Assembly (NCBI RefSeq): GCF_018320785.1
Contig: NC_054867.1
Location: 39,296,355-39,360,354 of the forward strand
DNA: 64,000 nucleotides
Reading direction: 5' to 3'
Source of the DNA: Cheilinus undulatus
Taxonomy: Eukaryota > Chordata > Actinopteri > Labriformes > Labridae
Shown here: piece by piece, positions 6,603 through 60,265 of the stretch
Numbering within the stretch: the first letter of the stretch is position 1
How the letters are laid out: the number at the start of each line of letters is the position of its first letter
The notes under the pieces: generated by a model
The model's input: only the letters and a program-made list of their open reading frames with translations
Databases searched by the model: none
Told to the model about the DNA's origin: nothing
Translations under genes and position numbers: made by a program

Positions 6603-7050
6603 TCAGAAAGCATGTTTACTCCCCTTTAAATGGTGTCACATTTGTAAAGAACATATATTTGTGGGATGAGCAGCAGAGCTGAGTATGTGGGTTGTGCCCA
6701 TGAAAATTTGCCAAATTTTCTTTGCCAAAGCAAAACAGCTTATTTTAGCTGTTAACTCCTGTTTTAAGCTTCTACTACCCCCAGGTGCTGACAATCAGAT
6801 GTCAATAACTTCTCAGCAGTTGATGACCAGGCTGGGTACAAGCATGAGGAGGAGGTGCCAGGCTGTTGTGGTCCTGTAACCAACCAACCATACAACACCA
6901 TACAGGAGCTGATGGCAGAATAAGACGTGAAGATTTGGTAAATTTTCATGGGTGCAACCCACATACTTAGCTCTGCTGCTCATCCCACAAATGCATTCTC
7001 CCTACAAATGTGGTACCATTTTAAAGGGAAATAAACAGGCTTTCCACTGG
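6603..7050. mobile_element. MITE with long terminal inverted repeats
   Basis: The left arm (about 6603-6722) and right arm (about 6930-7050) are imperfect reverse complements. They share GGGATGAGCAGCAGAGCT, then GTATGTGGGTTG, then CCCATGAAAATTT. As a result the two strands encode near-identical nonsense peptides (MWVVPMKICQIF and MWVAPMKIYQIF). The core of about 200 bp is unique. Arm divergence suggests an old insertion. It has no transposase. Confidence 0.65.
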
Positions 7051-15488: not shown

Positions 15489-16967
15489 GCTATTGCTTTG
15501 GGATTCCAGCAAACCACACCGAGAGCCATTACCCACAAATGGGGAAAATTTGAGAAAAGTGGTGAACCTTCCCAAGAGTGGCTGTTCTATCAAAATTACT
15601 TCAAGAGCACATTAACAAGTTATCGAGGAGGTCAGGAAAGCACCCAAAACAGTGTCTGAAAATCCGCAGGCTTCACTTTACCTCATTTGCAAGAATAATA
15701 GGGAAAATTCTACACCAGCGGTTCTCATGTGGAGGAGCCTCAGGATCCACTACCACCTTCTAAGAGAGATTTTTTTTCAAGCAAAATATACTAAGGATTG
15801 TTACAAAGTAAATTTATCTAATGAAAAATATTGCAAGTTGGACCTTAGATGGAATAAAACATACTGTAATAAAATAAAATGCTTTATAACGGAGGCCCTA
15901 AAAGGATGTGCGTGCTTAATGGTATGTTTAGTTTCACTCCAATTTCCTGACATTTTTAGGCTGTTTTCTAAAGATTTTAATAAATAAATCTGACAAAGGA
16001 AATCCTGCTTTACTGTTCCTATTAACAAGGATAAATACATAGGTAGAAATTTAAAGAAAAGATGCAAACTTTACTTATCATAGTAGAGTAATGATAACTA
16101 TCTGGATCATAAATCAGACATTTTGCCTGATTTTCGTTCCAGATTCACATCTGTGACCCCCTAAAAACAGCTCCTCAACCCGCTTTTGGGTCCCGATCCA
16201 CCAGCTGCTTTAAGCCATGTGGCAGAGGCCTGTGACAGTCTGTGAAGGGTTAAAGCCATGTCCTTGTGCTTTGGGACTCAGCTGAAACACCGTGAGAGCC
16301 GTTACCCACAAATGGAGAAAAACTGGAACAGTGGTGAACCTTCCCGGGAGCGGCCGGCTCACCAAAATCACTCCAAGAGTGCATCGATGACTCATCCAGG
16401 GGGTCGGGACAGAACCCAGAACGTCTAAAGACCTGCAGGCCACACTTGATTCATTTTAAAGAACAATAGGGGCGATTCACAGTTTTACACCAGAGGTCCT
16501 CACGTAGGGGAGCCTCAGGATCAAAAAATTTAGAAAAGGTAATTTATGTAATGAAAAATGTTGCAGGTTGGACCTTGGATGGAATTAAAGATATGGACTG
16601 GGCAAAACAAATTAAAACGCATTATTACAAAAGCCCTGAAGGACATGCATGCATATATTTTACTTTACATAAACTTCCTGATAATTTTAGGCTGTTTTCT
16701 AAAGATTTGAAGAAAAAAAACTGATGCAGGAAAATCCTGCTTTGTTTTTCCAGTTAAAGATAAATCAAATTGTTGAAATTTAAAGAAAAGATGACCTGTA
16801 ATGGGAGAAATCATGAATTAAACATATGGATCATTAATGGTAGACTTTTTGTAATATTTTCTTTCCAGGTTCCAGATTTGTGACCCCCTAAAAAAAGCTC
16901 CCTGGCCCACTTTTGGGTCCCAGCCCACCAGCTGAGAACCATTTTTAAGCCAAGTGGCAGAGGCCTA
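15489..16967 (+). mobile_element. Tandemly duplicated Tc1-like plus hAT-like composite
   Basis: Two diverged direct copies, 15489-16230 and 16262-16967. Each begins with a decayed Tc1-like transposase N-terminal region (TTACCCACAAATGG, GTGGTGAACCTTCCC, then AAAATYACT). Each continues into an element whose ends read CAGNGGTTCTCA and TTTTGGGTCC..CCACCAGCTG, typical of hAT-type nonautonomous elements. The simplest history is insertion of the second element into the first, then tandem duplication of the whole. No intact frame remains. Confidence 0.65.
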
Positions 16968-19427: not shown

Positions 19428-22092
<2,665 letters not shown>

Positions 22093-26537: not shown

Positions 26538-29500
26538 TTATTGGCCTGGCTCTTCGTTGACCAGGGCTGTGGGCGTCTTAGTGGACTTCTCAACCACCCA
26601 GGGGTGGGACAGGACCCCTTGAATGGGCAGTCTTTGCATGGGATTGTGCTTCAGCAGCCTGGCAACCAAGTCTTTGGCTCCATCACTGATATTAGATTGT
26701 GGCGGGTAAGTGTACTCCACCTAGAAGGAAAAGCCAGAAAGCCACTGGAAAGGTTAACCAAAGTCCAGGCTTAAGATCAAAGAACAGGTAACTATTCCTA
26801 CTAAAGAAAACTAATCAGATTCTGCACTATAACATGAAAAAAATCATGACTTTTGAAGCCTAGTTATCCTTCACTTACCCTCGATATCCTACGGTAGGTC
26901 TCTTCATGAGATTTGGCCTCGAATGGAGGTTTTCCAACCAAAAACTCATAGCAAAGGACGCCCAGACTCCAAAGGTCGACCTTTTCATCATGAGTTTTCC
27001 CCTCAATCATCTCAGGAGGCAGGTAGTCTAGAGTTCCACACAGAGTGGATCTCCTGAATCAAATTAGAGAAATATAGGTAATTTTAAAGAAAATTAGAGA
27101 AATAGATGAAAAGACCTGTTAAACCATCAAGTATGATAGATGTCATGAGTGAAGTACATACATGAAAGCCAGACTAGCACAACGAAAATGCTGCCCAAAA
27201 TCTTATTCTCATCAAAACATACCATAAAATCTGATTTACAAGGTACACCTTTTAATAATTTTTTTTGGTATGTTATGTTTTTATTAACTGAGGAGGACAG
27301 TAGATATAAACAATGATGAAAGGGTGAGATATGATATGCTGAAAGGGAGGCACAGGTCAGACCTGAACCCAGGCCCACATACATGGGGTGTGGCCTAACT
27401 GCTAAGCCATCGGTGCCCCAAAGGCTCATTTATACTCTACATTTGAAACACAGTACAGGAATGAAGCTTTCTGTCTGTACTCTGCGTTCCTTCAGTACAC
27501 ACAATTCTGCATTCTCTAAAAACTTACGGATATGGACTAAACGTTGTGATACCACTGCCAATCATGAGGGAAGTGTTGAGCAATGCAGCAAGCAGTTCAA
27601 GGCAAAGCAGCAAAAACTACTTAGAATCTTTTGAACAATGATCTGAGTCAAAGTCTGAGAAAATATGAGTAGATATTATGTGTGTTTCTATAAACTTCAA
27701 AGATAGACCCTTTCCCCACCAAGAAAGTTGCCAAGTCCTATATACTGATGCAGCCAATATTACAGATTAAAATGCAGAGACTTTTATGACCGTAAGTGTT
27801 CAGCTACACACTGTATGAGACCTAATGTGATAGAAAATATACCCCGTTTGTGTATTGCAAGAAGCTGCTTAATGTTCAGGACTTGCTGAAAGATATCACA
27901 ACACTAACCAGACGGGAGGGGGTCGTGCCTCTTTTTCAACCACTTTTCTCCCATGTTCGATTATAATTCTTTACTTCAAGAAAATGGCGGGCATACTATT
28001 AAGTAAATAAAGCTCCTAGAGCACTAGTTTGGCTATAAAGACCCCTCAGAGGAGGACAAAGCAACTTCTGGGCCAGGAGGCACTCTCACAACAATCAGCT
28101 GACAGCTCAACAGCAGCACTAAGGCTTGTAGATATGCAAACTCCATTTGGCAAAAACAAAATGGTGCTATGAGAGCAATACAGCTGCACAGATAACTGCA
28201 TGTTGTGGACTTTGCTGAACAAAATGGAAATTTTCACGCAGGAAGAGAGTTTAAAATGTTTTTCCATTAAAGAAACTCCAATAAACAGACTGTAAATCAT
28301 ATACTGGGGTAGCTTGCATTTCTAATTTTACAGTAATATTAGTCTGTTTCAGGCTCAATAGATAATACTTTACAAAAAAAGACTGGAAGCGACATGCAAT
28401 TAATCAAGCATATGTGCATACCTGGAGGAAGGTGTGTGAACAGACCAGCCAAAATCTGCAATCTTGAGCTCCCCGTTGACCCCCAGTAACAGATTCTCTG
28501 GTTTGATGTCCCTGTGGATCACCTTCTTGGAGTGGCAATAGGTGAGGGCATCTGCCAGCTCCATGATGTACTAGTCAAGCAAATGAATCATCATCATTAC
28601 TTAACACATCATTCATCAAGATTTATTTAAGAGTATCCTCTTCCATTTGAAATTCACCAAAAACTCAGTAAAAGGATTGTAAACCCCAATATGTTTGTGG
28701 AATTAAAACCCAGCTTTCCATCAAACACTTAATTTTAAAGCAAAGTTATAGTTGCAGAGAATCTAAAGCCAGCAGACTTACTGTTGCACTCCTCTCCTCA
28801 GAAAAATGTCCACAGCGCTGCAGCTCACCGTACAATTCACCTTTGGGTGCAAACTCAAGGATGAGATACACACGAGATGCATCGTGGAAGTAACCGTAGA
28901 GACGCAGGATATTGGGGTGCCTGCGGGTTGCCGATGCAGAAGTGTTCTGAGAAATTTTGTCAAAACTTAACTGACATTTAATGACAATAGAAAAGGCTGG
29001 AAACTATATGAACAATGGCACAGGCTAACACATCAGCTGATGTTTGGTACAACAGTCAAAGTCTGTGCATGAAGTTTTAATAACTGCAAAATGTAACCAA
29101 ATTTGAGATTAGCTAAGAGAGGAGACATGCAAAGAACCAAAGATGACTCAAGCATGATTCTGTTGATTTATAAACTGCCTGGTTCAACAAGTTATCAAGA
29201 AACAAATTTTAGGATCTCCAGGCCTTACTGCTACTTGTCATGTGGCACATGAGCACAGCCAAATGAAGATCAAGAAGCATTCACAATTTCTGCCATACAG
29301 GTGAGATAAACTGGGAGAGTCTGACCTTTACTGGTCAGTGTTCTGCTCCATTTGGTATGCACTAAGAACTATATATACTCAATATTTATCCAAGCAGTCT
29401 GTTTTAGTTTGGCAAGCTTTTTTTCTTATTTTTTTTAAACAATTCAAATAATAAACTTCAGCAACAACTAGTTGCTAAAGTTATCCGACTGGTTAATTGA

Positions 29501-32500
29501 ATCTCTTTTCCTGTCCCTTCAAATCAAAGCAACATCAGCTTTGGACTGGCTATCAAAAGTAAGAAGTCTTTTCTTTGGAATATCAGTAAAGAATCGACAG
29601 TAATAGACATCTACCATTCCTTATAACCTAACAATTTTGATGATCACTTTATCAAATCTTCATTTAGTTGATGAAGATAAAGTCAGGGCTTATATCATCT
29701 ATCAGTTATGCAATTTACTTTACCTGAGATGAGACTGGATTTCTACTTCTCTCCTCAGCTGGTGCTCCACCCCAGCCTTCTCCAACTGCTTCTTGAAGAG
29801 CACCTTCAGGGCCAAGATAAATTTACTCTGTCGCTCTCTAGCCAGATACACATTGCCAAATTTACCCTTTCCTAAGGGGCGGCCAATGTCAAAGTTTTCC
29901 AAGCTCCATCGTTTGCTGTGTGAGCAGAAATGTACATGGTTACGAAATATGGCTACAAAGTCTTAAATTTTAAAGCTTATATTAAAGAAATTATTTAGAA
30001 TCAAACAAACCTTGCTGCAGAAGTTTTTGCAGAATCAATCTTGGCTGGTTTGTCTGTAAAAAAAGATGATAGGCGAGGTTAAGCCACCCACTCCACAAAA
30101 GAACCACTTTTTTCATGTATAACTACATATTATTAAGCTTACCCTGTGGCTTGTCCTCCTTTGCTGGTTCTGATGGTGGTTTTGCCATCTCAGAGTTCAC
30201 CTTAGGAACATCTGTCTTTGGCTGGTTTTGCTGTGGAGCACGTTTAGGCTGAGGTGCAGGATTTCCATTCTGAGTAGCAGGGTTCACATTCTGACTGGTG
30301 GGGTTTGAGGGCTTGGCAGTAGCAGAGACATGAGACGCTGATTTCTGATGGCTCACAGGCCGCTGAACGCGCTGCGGTCCATTTGACACACCTAGGACAC
30401 GCTGATGTGCTATTGGTGTAACTACTGCCACCTGGGATTGTTGGGAGACTGGAATCCGTTTTGGCCCATTACTGATCGTCTGCAATTAAAGGAAAACAAA
30501 CACTTAAAAAACAGTCTTTAATACGGTTTACTGATCATCACTGCAACAAGGATGCTGCATCCTTTTGTTTGTGAATGCTTTAGTTCAACAGCCAAACAAT
30601 TTTCTAACCTCAACTCTTAGCTGTATGTTTGGAGTACTACCTGTATGTGCACATCTCCCACCTCAATGGTATGTCAGATATTTATGAAATAAGCATTCAT
30701 CCATTTCTTAGTCCCCATGATAATTTGTGTGAATTCTGGCCTGGGTGTGACTGCAGTTGCCTTTTGTCAAACCTGCGTTTTCCATAAGTAATAAGATGCC
30801 TGATTATCAGAGCAATTCAAAGATTTTTTTTACATTAAACCTTGTCTGTTACACCTCAAACAGTATGATGTTATTATTTCTCTGCTCTTTACTGTTGAGG
30901 AATGAGAGGGCAATATGAAGAAATGACCTCAAATAATGCAGATAGCAAGTATATTAAGCTAACTTTGATAGCCATGCATCAGTATTTGCATTGTAATAAT
31001 AATGATGATTGTGTTTTTTTAAAGGAGGCCTGAGACAACCTCATACTTTAAAGCAGATGCAGTGCCCATTCAGAGTCTTAATATTCCTCCCTTTAGTTTT
31101 TAGTTTATTATTTCACAAACTAGTCCCTCTTTTAGTATGCATTTTCAATAATCTCCATGATTTGCAGGGTCACCTCTTCATGTCTGTAAATCTGAAATTT
31201 GTTTTGAAGAATCCTTGATGCATTTAGACGGTAAACAGCATTTTAAAACACAGCTATTGAGGATACATATTTACCATTATCTGCTTGTTTGTATGACAAA
31301 GAAGAGAGCAACAAGTACCAGAACTCAGACATTTCAGAAAAATACAACGAATACTTGGAACTTTTAACAACTTACGGTTGGTTGTTTGATTCAAAAAAGG
31401 ATGCAGTATTTGCTAAAAAGAGTTGGTATTCCTTTCAAAACAACTGCTGTTGGTGGTTTGCCACTGGGAGAAACATTTATTTATGCGTCCTCTTTATCAC
31501 AGGAAGCTCCACCCATAATGGTATCTATTGTAGAGGCAACAGGAATATGGTGGACAGTGTGCTGTGCAGAGACATTTTGCATTTCTATTAACTCAAAAAT
31601 AAATACATAAAGAAATAAGATGCGTCTGTCATACTGTGACAGCAATGGTTGTGCCATACTATGAGGGACGTGATTGGCAAATGGGGAGAAATAGAAGTTC
31701 CCCTCAACCACTCACACACAGAAGGAAAAAAAAAACAAAAAACAAAGCTACACCACAGATATACTATTAACAAAATAACATTTGACATTCCTGTTGGTCA
31801 ATGCTATCAGATAAATATTTGCCATCTCTTCCTGCAGTCTGCTCAATGCACCATTGTGTGCTTTTCCTGAATCATTTTTATATTTAAAATCTAATCCTTC
31901 AGCCTTCTTTGATTGACCTCAGAGGTTACATTTTTAAACAAAGGTAGGGCTGTGATAAGTTTTATGATTTTGCTTATTTAAGCCCTATAGAATCACTAAA
32001 ACTGCTGCTGAATACAAATAGCCTATGTGTAGTCCATATTAGGCATGCACAATATTAAGATTTTTGTTGATATTTGATATACCAGTATTTCCAAGTTCAT
32101 TTTAGCTGATACTGATATACCTTTTTATTATTCAAAAAATAAAAACACTGTGTGTGCACAGTGTAAAGAGAGGCTGAGCCAAGCTGAGAGAGGAGCAATT
32201 TCTGTCGTTTTATGCTTAGGGATTCATTTAAAATGTTCAGGGCTCACGAAAGGCCACAATGATTGTATAGCACCCTAAGCAACCACCCATACCTGATGGC
32301 ACACTTGTGCTGATCAGGATTGGAAATTAGCACCTGCCACCAGCTGGTGTTTATGTGCGGTGGAGGGTGGCAGGTGCTCAACCTACCAGCCACAGTGGCA
32401 GGTAAATAAAAGTCATGCAGCAGAGTGAAAAATAACAGAAAACCATGCAATTTAAATCCAGGTCTTTGTGGTTGTGGTTGAGGTTTGGTGACAGTATCAA

Positions 32501-46182: not shown

Positions 46183-49100
46183 TTAATCTACAGTTTCTTG
46201 GCTTGTTTCAGTCACTGTTTCCATTGGAACTCCCACCCTAGACTCCACCTTCGTTGTCACTTTTGATGAGGGTCCCTCCTCTTCTTCTTCCTCTACATCC
46301 CATTCTTGTTCAGCTGTGGCGTCTTGGTACTGCTGGTACTCCGAAACCAGGTCGTTAAGGTTGCTTTCGGCCTCTGTGAACTCCATTTCATCCATACCCT
46401 CGCCTGTGTACCAGTGGAGAAAAGCCTTTCGTCTGAACATCAATGAGAACTGCTCCCCTACACGGCGGAATATTTCCTGAATGGCTGTGTTATTGCCGAT
46501 GAAGGTGGAGGCCATTTTCAGGCCTCGGGGTGGGATGTCGCACACAGCGACCTTGACATTATGAGGGATCCAGTCGACAAAGTAGTTGGTGTTTCTTTTC
46601 TGGATTGCAAGCATTTGCTCATCTACTTCTTTGGTGGACATCCGCCCACGGAAGATGCCAGCAACAGTGAGGTATCGCCCCCGTCTTGGGTCGCATGCCG
46701 TCATCATGTTGCGGGCATCAAACATCTGCTGGGTGAGCTCCGGCACTGTCAGGGCTCTATACTGTGTGCTTCTACGGGGCGTTAGAGGGGCAAAGCCTGG
46801 CATGAAGAAGTGTAGGCGAGGGAAAGGCACCATGTTGACAGCAAGCTTCCTCAGGTCTGCGTTGAGCTGTCCAGGGAATCTCAGGGAGGTCGTGACCCCG
46901 CTCATAGTCATGGAGACTAAGTGGTTGAGGTCCCCATAAGTTGGCGTGGTCAGTTTAAGAGTGCGGAAACAGATGTCGTAGAGGGCCTCATTGTCAATGC
47001 AGAAAGTCTCATCTGTGTTCTCCAGGAGCTGGTGGACTGACAGGGTGGCGTTGTACGGCTCCACCACAGTGTCAGAGACTTTAGGGGAGGGCATGATGCT
47101 GAAGCTGTTTATGATGCGGTCAGGGTACTCCTCCCGGATCTTGTTTATGAGGAGGGTTCCCATGCCAGAACCAGTGCCACCTCCTAAGGAGTGAACAAAC
47201 TGGAAGCCCTGGAGGCAGTCACAGCTTTCACTCTCATTCCTCACTCGATCTATAACCTGCTCCACCAGTTCTGCTCCCTCCGTGTAGTGGCCCTTCGCCC
47301 AGTTATTACCAGCGCCTGAGTTACCTGGAACACCAAAATAAAACTATGTAGGTCAATCTAATTCTATAAGTTGACTGCAGAATAAGTGGGGGAGCCATAC
47401 AAACACTGTTACAATGAAACAGCTCAACAGTTTTAGCATCACTTTACAGAGGGAACAATGAATTACATTCAGATTCTTAATAAGTAGTGCTAAGTATATT
47501 CATTTTGAAATGTTTTGACCTTTCTCTAGTTTCCTCTGCCAAGGAGGTTATGTGATCGGCAGGGTTTGTTAGTTAGTTAGTTAGTTTGTTAGCAACATAA
47601 CTCAAAAAGTTCTGGACAGATTTTGATGAAATTTTCAGGAAATGTCAGAAATGGCATAAGGAAGAACTGATTAGATTTTGGGAGTGATCCAGATCACCGT
47701 CTGGATCCAGGAATTTTCTAAAAGATTCTGTACTATTGGGAGATATAGCTAATGGTGGAGGTCTGTGCTCTCCGAGTGCTTTTCTAGTTTTCTCATGCAA
47801 CAAAGCCAGAGAACCACTGACAGGCACCCAAATTTGAAATATAAATACCCAACAGTAGTTGCTCATCACCTCATCATAACTCACATTATTGTAACATTTC
47901 TCCAGGCCTGATGTAACTTAAGAGGATATATGCAAACTATTGATGAAATATCACAAATAATATATATATATTTTAAAATATTTGTCTGCCATTTTAACTC
48001 ATAGAAATCCACTGACTCATAGTTGAAATTCAATATTTCTATTGCGATCCAACTGTAATTTGCTTGATGTAAAGACATTTGGGCTTGGAGTTGGGCTCTA
48101 TTTCATTCACTCCTGGCAACTCATTTGTATTCATAATACATGTTTTAATCACTGAAAGTAATTGTTGACGTTTACCTCATGTTCAGTGCAAATCTACAGA
48201 AAAAGGACTATGTATTAAGACTCCTTGGTGTAAATACAACTATTTCTTTTAACTTAAAGGCTGTAATTTACAACTTTTTCAAAGTATACTGCCATGATTC
48301 AACTTAAACCAGGGATTTATTCATACAGCAACTGGGTGCAGTTAGTAGCCAAAGCAAAGGTTATGTAGCTTTAACAATGGAATTATCAAGAACCTGCCTT
48401 ACTAGCTGTGACAAATTTACCTGATTTATGTCAAACCAATCACAACCATTTATCTAAAACAGTGGTTTCCAACCCTTTTGCCTTAGAGTCCCCCTTACTT
48501 GTATCTAACCAAAGCTAAGCCCACCCAAGACCCACAGAAAAATAACATAGACATTGCCATCAAAAATGATAGTCAAAACTTAAAATTTTATCGATTATTT
48601 ATTAAGATAAACTTTCTGTGCAAAAACTTTTGTTTCAACTAGCCACTAAATCTGCCACTAGTATTAGGAAGGCTAATGTGCAAATATAATTTCGACAACC
48701 TCAGACCAGACAAAGCCTCCAACCCCCCTGAGATTTCTGACATGACCCCAAGGGGCCCAGACCCCAGATTTGGTTGATATAAGAAGAAGCTTTTATTGCA
48801 TCAGTTTTAAACAAACTGGATTGTAATTCTTGCAAGGTAAAAATGCAAGCATTTTTCCAAATGTTACGTTTTTAATGTCAAATGTGTTGAAAAAGAAGCC
48901 AGAATAAGTGGTTGTTAATCATTTGCCCATATATGAAGCCTACAGTTAAACCTTAAATCACCACCTGTTGATTACGCCTCTTGGATTCACATGTGTGAAT
49001 TGGTCTGATGATTTCCTACTAATTGTTATTGCAGTGCCAGGTATGATTACAGTTTAAAAGTGTATAAATGACTCTAATTTTACCATAAAGAGGCAGGAAA

Positions 49101-55175: not shown

Positions 55176-55577
55176 ATGGAGGTTAGCAATGGCATGTTCC
55201 ATCCTGAATGCAAACAATAATTACATTTTATTTACTCCTAAATACCCAATTTACTTATTAAAGCAACAAAAATATACATTTTATATATTATTGCCTGTTT
55301 CAAAATGTTATCCCCCTCCTATTCATATAATATATTCTTTTGTACTATGAAAGCAATGGGTGGGCCCACCGGACTAGGACAACAGTGAAAGTGTGGGCCC
55401 ATTTACAGAGTCTTTCAAGGATCCAGCCATTGTTTCTGGCAGGCCTGCATTTCTGTTGGCTTGATAACATCACTCCTAGATTGCTAAACTCACCGCTAGC
55501 TAGCTAAATCATGCTGATAGCAAGATAAGACTTAATGCTTATACTAACTGTTGTCTAGAACAGGTCAAGAATAAATA

Positions 55578-55782
55578 CAGTCGCTAGAAAAAGTATGTGA
55601 ACCCTTTGAGATTTCTTGGATTTCTGCATAAATTGGTCATCAAATGTGCTCCGATCTTCATCTAATTCACAACAATAGACAAACACAGTCTGCTTAAACT
55701 AATACTGCACAAAAAATGATATGTTTTCATGTTTTTATTGAACAAAACATGTAAACTTTCACAGTGCAGGGTGGAAAAAGTA
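55578..55782 (+). repeat. Left terminal inverted repeat
   Basis: 205 bp, identical to the reverse complement of the right arm. The direct-repeat motif GAAAAAGTATGTGAACCC occurs near 55587 and near 55774. Confidence 0.95.
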
Positions 55783-55957
55783 TGTGAACCCCTAGGCTAA
55801 TGACTTCTCCAAGAGCTAATTGGAGCCAGGAGTCAGCCAACCTGGAGTCCAATCAATGTGATGAGATTGGATGTGTCGGTTAAAGCTGCCCTACCCTATA
55901 AAAACACACACCAGTTTTGAGTTTGCTGTTCTCAAGAAGCATTGCCTGATGTGAACC

Positions 55958-57000
55958 ATGCCTGGCACAAAAGAGCTCAGAAGACCTACGATCAAGAATT
56001 GTTGATTCGCATGAAGTTGGAAAGGGTTACAAAAGTATCTCTAAAAGCCTTGATGTTCATGTGTCCACAGTAAGACAGACTGTCTACAAATGGAGAAGGT
56101 TCAGCACTGTTGCTACTCCCCCCAGGCGTGGTTGTCCTGTAAAGACGGCTGCAAGAACACAGCACAGAAAGCTCAGTGAGGCGAAGAAGAATCCTAGAGT
56201 GTCAGCTAAAGACTTACAGAAGTCTCTGGCACATGCCAACATTTGTGTTGACAAATCTACAATAAGTAAAACATTAAACAAGAATGGCGTTAATGGGAGG
56301 ACACCACGGAGGAAGCCACTGCTGTCCAAAAAAAACATTGCTGCACATTTGAAGTTTACAAAAGAGCACCTGGATGTTCCACAGCACTACTGGCAAAATA
56401 TTCTGTCCATAGATGAAACCAAAATTGAGTTGTTTGGAAGGAACACACAACGCTATGTGTGGAGAAAAAAAAGGCACAGCACACCAACATCAAAACCTCA
56501 TCCCAACTGTGAAATATGGTGGAGGGGCCATCATGGTTTGGGGCTACTTTGCTGCCTCAGGGCCTGGACGGATTGCTGTCATTGATGGAAAAATGAATTC
56601 CGAATTTTATCAAAACATTTTACAGGAAGACTTAAGACCATCTGTCCGCCAACTGAAGCCCAACAGAGGATGGGTGATGCAACAGGACAACGACCCAAAG
56701 CATAGATGTAAATCAACAACAGAATGGCCTCAACAGAAGAAAATACGCCTTCTAGAGTGGCCCAGTCAGAGTCCTGACCTCAACTTGATTGAGATGCTGT
56801 GGCATGACCTCAAGAGAGCGATGCACACCAGACATCGGAATAATATTGCTGAACTGGAACAGTTTTGTAAAGAGGAATGGTCCAAAATTCCTCCTGACTG
56901 TTGTGCAGGTCTGATCTACAACTACAGGAAACGTTTGGTTGAGGTTATTGCTGCCAAAGGAGGGTCAACCCGTTATTACTTTTTCCACCCTGCACTGTGA
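55958..57000 (+). pseudogene. Broken Tc1-like transposase
   Basis: The start ATG at 55958 opens MPGTKEL, then the frame shifts after GAGCTC; two bases appear missing relative to related fish copies. The main frame resumes upstream of [13 protein letters not shown] (helix-turn-helix region). The first catalytic Asp is in LSIDETKIELFG. At an A-run near 56463-56471 the frame shifts again by one base. The second frame carries QQDNDPKH and LNLIEMLW, giving a DD34E spacing, and ends RYYFFHPAL with a stop at 57000. All three catalytic residues are present, but no single frame makes the enzyme, so this copy is nonautonomous. Confidence 0.9.
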
Positions 57001-57181
57001 AAGTTTACATGTTTTGTTCAATAAAAACATGAAAACATATCATTTTTTGTGCAGTATTAGTTTAAGCAGACTGTGTTTGTCTATTGTTGTGAATTAGATG
57101 AAGATCGGAGCACATTTGATGACCAATTTATGCAGAAATCCAAGAAATCTCAAAGGGTTCACATACTTTTTCTAGCGACTG
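56977..57181 (-). repeat. Right terminal inverted repeat
   Basis: 205 bp, an exact reverse complement of the left arm. It overlaps the last coding bases of the transposase. Confidence 0.95.
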
Positions 57182-58112
57182 TATGTCATTATTTCTTTAG
57201 AGGGGCAATGTTTCCTTTATTAGAGTTTTAGCATGACTTAACTGTTTGATAAAATTAACTTTTTTATCATTATAAGACAGTAGATTATCAGAAATAGGTG
57301 TACTGCCTTGTTATCCATACAGTGCTGTGGAAAATTTTGCCCTCTCCTTGTTTTTTTTTTTTTTTTTTTCATATTTGTTTGCATGATAATCAAAGTAAAT
57401 ACAAAATGCAGTTTTTAAACAGTTATTTCATTTATTAAGGGAAACAGTCATGCAAACCTACCTGGTCCTAAAAAAGTAATTACCCCTCAACCTAATAACT
57501 GGTTTGTGGAATTGCAGAACTGCTTTCATTTAGCCACATAAGAGGATTTTTGAGCATGAACAGCCTGTTTCAGCTCATGCCATATCATCTCAATCAAATC
57601 TAAGTCCAGACTTTGACTAGGCCACTCCAAAAATGTTATTTTCTTCTTCTTCTTCTTCTTCTTATTATTATTATTAAATTCATTCAGAGGTGGACTTGCT
57701 GTGGTGTTTTGGCTCAATGTCCCGCTGCGCTTAAGCTTGAGGCCACAAACTGATGGCCAGGCATCCTCCTTCAGGATTTTCTGGTAGAGAGCAGATTTCA
57801 TGATTCCATCAATCACAGTGGTTTTGGCCTTGGAAATCTCTTATGGATGGCATTGTTGCCCAGTCTCTATTTTTTTTTAATTGTTGTATCATGAACACAG
57901 ACCTTAACTGAGTTATGTAAGGCCTGCAGGTCTTGAGATGTTCTGGGTTCACCACTTTCCCAAGTCTCCCCCATTTGTGGTTAATGGCTCTCACAGTGGA
58001 GTCCTAAAGCCTCAGAAATGGCTTTGTAACCCTTTCCAAACTGATAGATGTCACTGACTTTCACATTGGTTCTTAAATTTCTTTAGATCGCTGCATGATG
58101 TGTTGCTTTTTG

Positions 58113-59633: not shown

Positions 59634-60265
59634 CCTGGAGGTTAGCAATGACACACTCATCCTAAATTCAAACAATTTAGTTTATGCCTAATATCCATTT
59701 TGCTTATCAAATCAACATAAATATAACTCTAATATATTATTGCCTGTTTCAAAATTTAAACCACCTCCTCTTTAACATAATATAAGCTTTTATTTTTGCA
59801 ATATTAAGGGAGTGGGTGGGCCCACTGGACTAGGACAGTAATGTCCGTATTTTTTGTTTTTCCGATTCGTTCCTAAACTGTATGGAGCTAGGCCCAGGAT
59901 GCTAATGTCAAACGGGGCTAGTGCTAACGCTTTCCAATGTTCATGCATTGATATTATTAAATAGTATCTAGGGAGAGCCCATTTACAGAGTCTTTTAGGG
60001 GTCCAGCCGTTGTTTCTGGCAGGGTTTCTGTACGCTTGATGACATCACTCCTAGCTAAACTTAAAGTGCTAGCTAGCCAAACATGCTGATAGCAGGATAA
60101 GATTTAATGGTTTTGTTAAAGGTTGTCTTCAGTTGGTCAAGAAAAAATATGTCACTGTTTCTTCAGAGGGGCAAAATTTCCTTCAGTGAAGTTTTAGCAT
60201 GACCTGATTGTTTGATAAAATGCCAATTCTTTGTAATCCATACAGTGCTGTGATAAAAAGTATTC
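59634..60265. repeat. Diverged duplication, copy B (empty-site copy)
   Basis: Colinear with copy A at 55178-57345 but without the 1604-bp Tc1-like element. At the matching point it reads GTCAAGAAAAAATATGTCAC (TA at 60148-60149). It has about 100 bp of extra sequence around 59845-59960. It ends in the left end of another Tc1-like relic. Confidence 0.7.

Follow-up and report, generated by a model that had tools for sequence, protein, structure and literature searches.

The element and its insertion site

The coordinates of all the features are collected in Table 1, counted from the first letter of the window, i.e. the whole stretch of 64,000 nucleotides of Cheilinus undulatus DNA that was analysed. 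A Tc1-like element of the Sleeping Beauty type (DD34E) extends from 55578 to 57181 (1604 bp). The copy is inactive, belongs to a Tc1-like family (DD34E, IR/DR) with many copies, and lies within another repeat. A paralogue of that repeat without an element is located further downstream (59636–60221), and this aligns across the joined flanks of the element with one TA at the junction. Insertion of the element at TA with duplication of the target can therefore be read directly from the empty site. TA flanks both of the BLAST-defined ends in 38 of the 59 other copies of the family that were aligned with this one (see below), and does not do so in the other 21.

Starting from the left end, the element comprises an arm of 205 bp, the transposase gene and a right arm that is the exact reverse complement of the left. 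The original prediction had noted that the arms are identical over this length, and that is correct; the match becomes 208 bp if the TA and one further matching base are counted. The homologous arm is ~228 bp in many of the other copies (alignment rows 1–228).

The left arm contains two copies of a direct repeat, 187 bp apart, in the IR/DR arrangement. The inner copy of the right arm is present in the relatives inspected, and is mostly deleted here. Most of it has been removed by a 17 bp deletion at 56976/56977 that has a 2 bp TA microhomology, and the identity of the right arm stops at this point. The deletion, which did not figure in the original prediction, is carried by none of the 59 other copies, and the substitution at 56971 is found in none of 28 others. 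All four direct repeats are reported to be necessary in Sleeping Beauty, according to the available text of one source (PMC7827188). Remobilisation of the present copy, even in trans, would now appear unlikely because the right inner transposase-binding site is largely deleted, and if the four-repeat requirement applies here then the copy could not have been mobilised, even in trans, at any time after the deletion.

Table 1. Features of the element, its target repeat and the empty site (window coordinates)
Feature	Position	Strand	Remarks
Target repeat, left part	55177..55575	+	Second copy within the window; two aligned blocks
TA target-site duplication, left	55576..55577	.	Single TA in the empty paralogous repeat
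Left arm, 205 bp	55578..55782	+	Exact reverse complement of right arm
Left outer direct repeat, putative transposase-binding site	55587..55604	+	Role by analogy with Sleeping Beauty (PMC7827188, available text)
Stretch with minority variants in both arms	55649..55757	+	55649, 55652, 55757; mirrored at 57110, 57107, 57002
Left inner direct repeat, intact	55774..55791	+	Pairs with the left outer copy
Transposase, N-terminal part (HTH domains, first catalytic Asp)	55950..56464	+	Frame broken near 55975 by 2-bp loss
Second frame break, an added base in an A-run	56465..56472	+	Same break in 10/59 other copies
Transposase, C-terminal portion with the second Asp and the Glu at DD34E spacing	56473..57000	+	Domain and structure matches
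Right inner direct repeat, remnant	56970..56990	-	17-bp deletion at 56976/56977; substitution at 56971
Right arm, 205 bp	56977..57181	-	No base differs from left arm; may have been the arm copied onto
Right outer direct repeat, intact	57155..57172	-	Inverted match to left outer copy
TA target-site duplication, right	57182..57183	.	Single TA in the empty paralogous repeat
Target repeat, right part	57184..57255	+	Continues the repeat of 55177..55575
Paralogous repeat without element (empty site)	59636..60221	+	~140 bp extra in the middle

The transposase

The transposase is divided between two overlapping frames, 55950–56585 and 56413–57000. The two pieces match the Pfam domains HTH_SB, HTH_Tnp_Tc3_2 and DDE_3, together with the Sleeping Beauty structures PDB 5cr4 (E = 4e-55) and 2m8e. 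The second Asp and the Glu are separated by 34 residues (counted by eye in the translation), i.e. the D-34-E spacing. Both of the frame breaks described in the original prediction are present, one near the start and the other in an A-run. The first is a loss of 2 bp that occurs in none of the 59 other copies, and the second is an extra base. With no readable transposase, and with one of its four transposase-binding sites largely lost, the 1604 bp element is most probably a fossil. Five of the 59 other copies keep a frame of 330 or more amino acids, which would encode a putative transposase.

The A-run break was tested as the mark of a clade mobilised in trans, and this is not supported. Its carriers (this copy and the ten others) are no closer to one another than are randomly chosen sets; their mean distance is 0.0573 compared with 0.0524 for the random sets, 1862 of 2000 of which are as close or closer. 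The extra A is therefore mostly the result of recurrent slippage. Two of the carriers (L022 and L028) rank fourth and seventh in closeness to this copy, and L028 is grouped with it in the tree. Within the pair of L028 and the present copy the break is possibly inherited, and that would mean past movement in trans.

The family in the genome

The genome (1.17 Gb, 46 contigs) was searched with the element, giving 2551 candidates; the best 40, made up of this copy and 39 others, were scored. A second search used another copy (L013) as the query, and gave 2753 candidates of which again the best 40 were scored (39 others). Seventy-one other copies were fetched and 59 near-full-length ones were aligned with the present copy, making 60 in total. 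The copies left out of the alignment were L033, which has an insert, L038–L047, which are incomplete or internally deleted, and L077, which is short. The alignment was drawn from the highest-ranking matches to this copy and to L013, and is thus a non-random sample that favours the less diverged copies. The body was taken as element positions 229–1376.

The long matches to this copy among the best 40 of the 2551 candidates lie at 91–96% (rounded), and none of the 39 others scored reaches 98%. With L013 as the query none of the 39 others (best 40 of 2753) has a long match above 96%. The bodies of the 60 aligned copies differ pairwise by a median of 5.1% and a minimum of 2.4%, with none of the 1770 pairs under 2%. 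The tree is star-like, with terminal branches that sum to 1.44 and internal branches to 0.13. The family appears to stem from an old burst at a depth of ~2.6% per lineage, taken as half the median and expressed in units of divergence. No relatives outside this genome were found in viral contigs, genome contigs and phage records, and of three pattern matches in genome contigs none is a relative by tblastn. The terminal sequence of the family is of two kinds, starting CAGTCGCTAG or CAGTTGCAAG (e.g. in L022, L023, L026, L027, L031 and L036), and some copies are mixed.

The body of the present copy is of ordinary age within the family. It has 38 differences from the majority (43rd lowest of the 60), where the others have a mean of 34 and a range of 22–64, and 10 singletons where the mean is 11.2. 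Its terminal branch is 0.024 in length (34th of 60; median 0.023), and the nearest body among the 59 (L010) is 4.0% away. The original prediction had taken the identical arms as a sign of very recent movement; this is not supported, as the body is as diverged as those of the other copies and no long match reaches 98% among the 39 others scored (best 40 of 2551). It had also proposed that the family may still be active. Copies with an uninterrupted frame were indeed found, being the five of 59 noted above, and against this there are no copies at 98% or above among those scored and no pairs of bodies under 2%. On these comparisons current activity of the family is unsupported but possible, and younger copies may exist among the candidates beyond the best 40 of 2551.

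An old body could nevertheless have been inserted recently if the transposase of an intact relative had acted in trans on a donor with identical arms. The predicted frames of the five relatives might provide such an enzyme, the outer ends are intact with TA duplicated, and the nearest relative in the tree (L028) has the A-run break in common with this copy, so that an ancestor of this copy may already have been mobile while its frame was broken. However, homogenisation of the donor arms would be needed beforehand anyway, a long match of at least 98% is absent from the 39 other copies scored in each search, and the 17 bp deletion is carried by none of the 59 others and has taken most of a direct repeat of the kind that Sleeping Beauty is reported to need (PMC7827188, available text). 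Recent insertion in trans is regarded as decidedly unlikely. The claim of mobilisation in trans is thus unsupported for a recent event, with the right inner site mostly gone, while an earlier movement could have occurred, as the break common to L028 would allow.

The arms

The two arms of this copy differ at none of 205 positions. In the 60-copy alignment the arms of each of the 59 others differ from one another at 5–24 positions, with a mean of 10.6 (5.3%) that is close to the pairwise value of the bodies, and the longest identical arm-to-arm stretch among them is 100 bp. The probability of zero differences is 2.4e-5 from a Poisson distribution and 2.7e-4 from a negative binomial fitted to the other copies; the latter becomes 0.016 when multiplied by the 60 copies. 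Zero differences place an upper bound of ~1.5% (95%) on the divergence of the arms since they were equalised, i.e. 28% of the mean of the others. As the body is of ordinary age, the arms seem to be younger than it is. Arms free of singletons are, however, also found in five other copies.

Could the identity be an artefact of the assembly? Assembly and short-read polishing have difficulty with long inverted repeats, and the reads or the polishing of one arm might have been applied to the other, erasing real differences; here it is the assembly alone that was examined. However, 5–24 arm differences survive in 59 copies of the same assembly, and the adjoining 17 bp deletion has not been erased. 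An artefact is considered unlikely.

Each arm differs from the joint arm majority at just three positions, as few as in 12 of the 118 other arms (median 7), and the arm that survived would therefore have been a little-changed one. No arm among the 59 other copies is identical to those of this copy, the nearest having three differences. This bears on the possibility that both arms were overwritten from the arm of another copy in the genome. Fischer et al. 2003 reportedly deals with exchange among Tc1 copies dispersed in the genome of C. elegans, and the 59 copies compared come from ~2500 candidates. Yet the nearest arm is still three differences away and two events would be required, making such ectopic conversion very improbable.

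Probable arm-to-arm copying

In cut-and-paste transposition the two arms travel as separate sequences and are not equalised. Because it does not copy one arm onto the other, the identity of the arms cannot date the jump. The element would have been inserted at TA inside another repeat during the old burst of the family. After the copy had aged, one arm may have been overwritten from the other, with gene conversion or template switching taking place between the two inverted arms of the element. That an old inactive copy had one arm later copied over the other within the element in either of these ways is the best explanation, and is held to be probable. Gene conversion was given in parentheses in the original prediction as an alternative to recent movement, and of the two it is the better supported, by zero arm differences where the others have 5–24 and a body of ordinary age.

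Transfer between arms has also occurred elsewhere in the family. There are 58 variants that exactly two arms have in common, and for 11 of these both arms belong to a single copy where 0.49 would be expected (P = 2e-12). None of the 11 belongs to the present copy. Repeated mutation of CpG is a poor explanation since nine of the 11 are transversions, and a variant inherited from a small unsampled subfamily would still need to have been transferred between arms at some time. The arms within a copy are closer than in shuffled pairings (627 compared with 809 ± 17; none of 10,000 shuffles), and this similarity is partly due to inherited subfamily variants.

The minority variants common to both arms of this copy are located at element positions 72, 75 and 180, of which that at 75 is frequent in the family. 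At position 180 both arms here have T, while 111 of the 120 arms have A; the copy grouped with this one (L028, support 0.78) has T in the left arm only. This hints that the left arm was copied onto the right, which would be the likelier direction. L028 is also left-only at position 72, but two other copies (L009 and L010) have that variant in both arms, and a third (L076) has T in both arms at position 180. The right arm of L028 is closer to the arm of this copy (three differences, with 31 gapped columns) than is its left (nine). Across the family there are no positions at which the frequencies in left and right arms differ by 25% or more.

The 17 bp deletion may stem from the same repair event as the copying of the arm. 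For such elements, excision followed by strand-annealing repair with frequent deletions has been described in the available part of one account (PMC3878927), and a single event giving both the copied arm and the deletion is plausible. The adjacency of the deletion to the end of the identity is not independent evidence for this, because nearly all of the homology beyond the deletion is gone and the identity had to end there.

More generally, the arms of Tc1-like elements of this kind in fish may evolve in concert, with inactive copies in which sequence continues to pass from one inverted arm to the other, and such exchange might sometimes span a whole arm with a deletion at the end of the tract. 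Taken together these two propositions are judged to be evenly poised between true and false. If they hold, the identity of the arms records repair and not the time of insertion. A search of the literature, judged from titles and abstracts, gave no account of arm-to-arm conversion inside Tc1 elements. Four longer strings from the arm sequence occurred nowhere in the text searched, and matches to a 10-base piece, present in 14 papers, were judged from titles and the openings of abstracts to be chance.

Comparison with other systems

The element has the general organization of Sleeping Beauty and related Tc1-like elements of fish, being ~1.6 kb in length with a TA target and IR/DR arms of ~205–228 bp; the arms of Sleeping Beauty are given as ~220 bp in the available text (PMC7827188). 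Like elements of the Sleeping Beauty type it has outer and inner direct repeats, HTH domains and a DD34E catalytic domain. Unlike Sleeping Beauty it is a decayed native copy with two frame breaks, a right inner direct repeat that is mostly lost and arms that are identical. ZB of zebrafish is also a Tc1/mariner element of fish, and the TIRs of its full-length copies are given as 100% identical; in the portion of the source available its copies are above 99% alike and 19 are intact (PMC7913693). ZB is a young family, whereas here none of the 1770 pairs of bodies is under 2%. Inverted arms that are kept alike by gene conversion are known from chromosomal palindromes (PMC8981503, in the part available). 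Those are large and lie on sex chromosomes, while here the arms are the 205 bp ends of a transposon.

The element itself is an ordinary fossil. With its 59 relatives in the same genome as the control, it shows that the age of a DNA transposon cannot be read from identical inverted arms in the way that the age of a retrotransposon is read from identical LTRs. Should reads confirm this, conversion between the arms of short inverted repeats could be counted in the record that the family provides.

Other features of the window

An older relic of a Tc1-like element lies just downstream on the opposite strand (57514–58061, -), with a piece that is 43% identical to the transposase over 105 residues together with a weaker N-terminal piece; its frame at 57529–57840 has no Pfam match. 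A weak match to the N-terminal part of the transposase at 16238–16447 (+; 34%, E = 5e-5) is possibly another. There are no Rfam or tRNA matches in the window. Two segments of ~700 bp (15494–16231 and 16267–16966) form a nearly tandem direct repeat with 69% identity, and an inverted repeat of ~115 bp (6606–6720 and 6929–7044; 85%) is possibly MITE-like. Pfam matches to pieces of genes comprise an amino-acid transporter at 20905–22089 (+), presumably slc32a1-like, tubulin at 46186–47343 (-), and two pieces of a protein kinase at 28749–29003 and 29723–29962 (-), one of them below the cut-off, which we take to be aurora-like.
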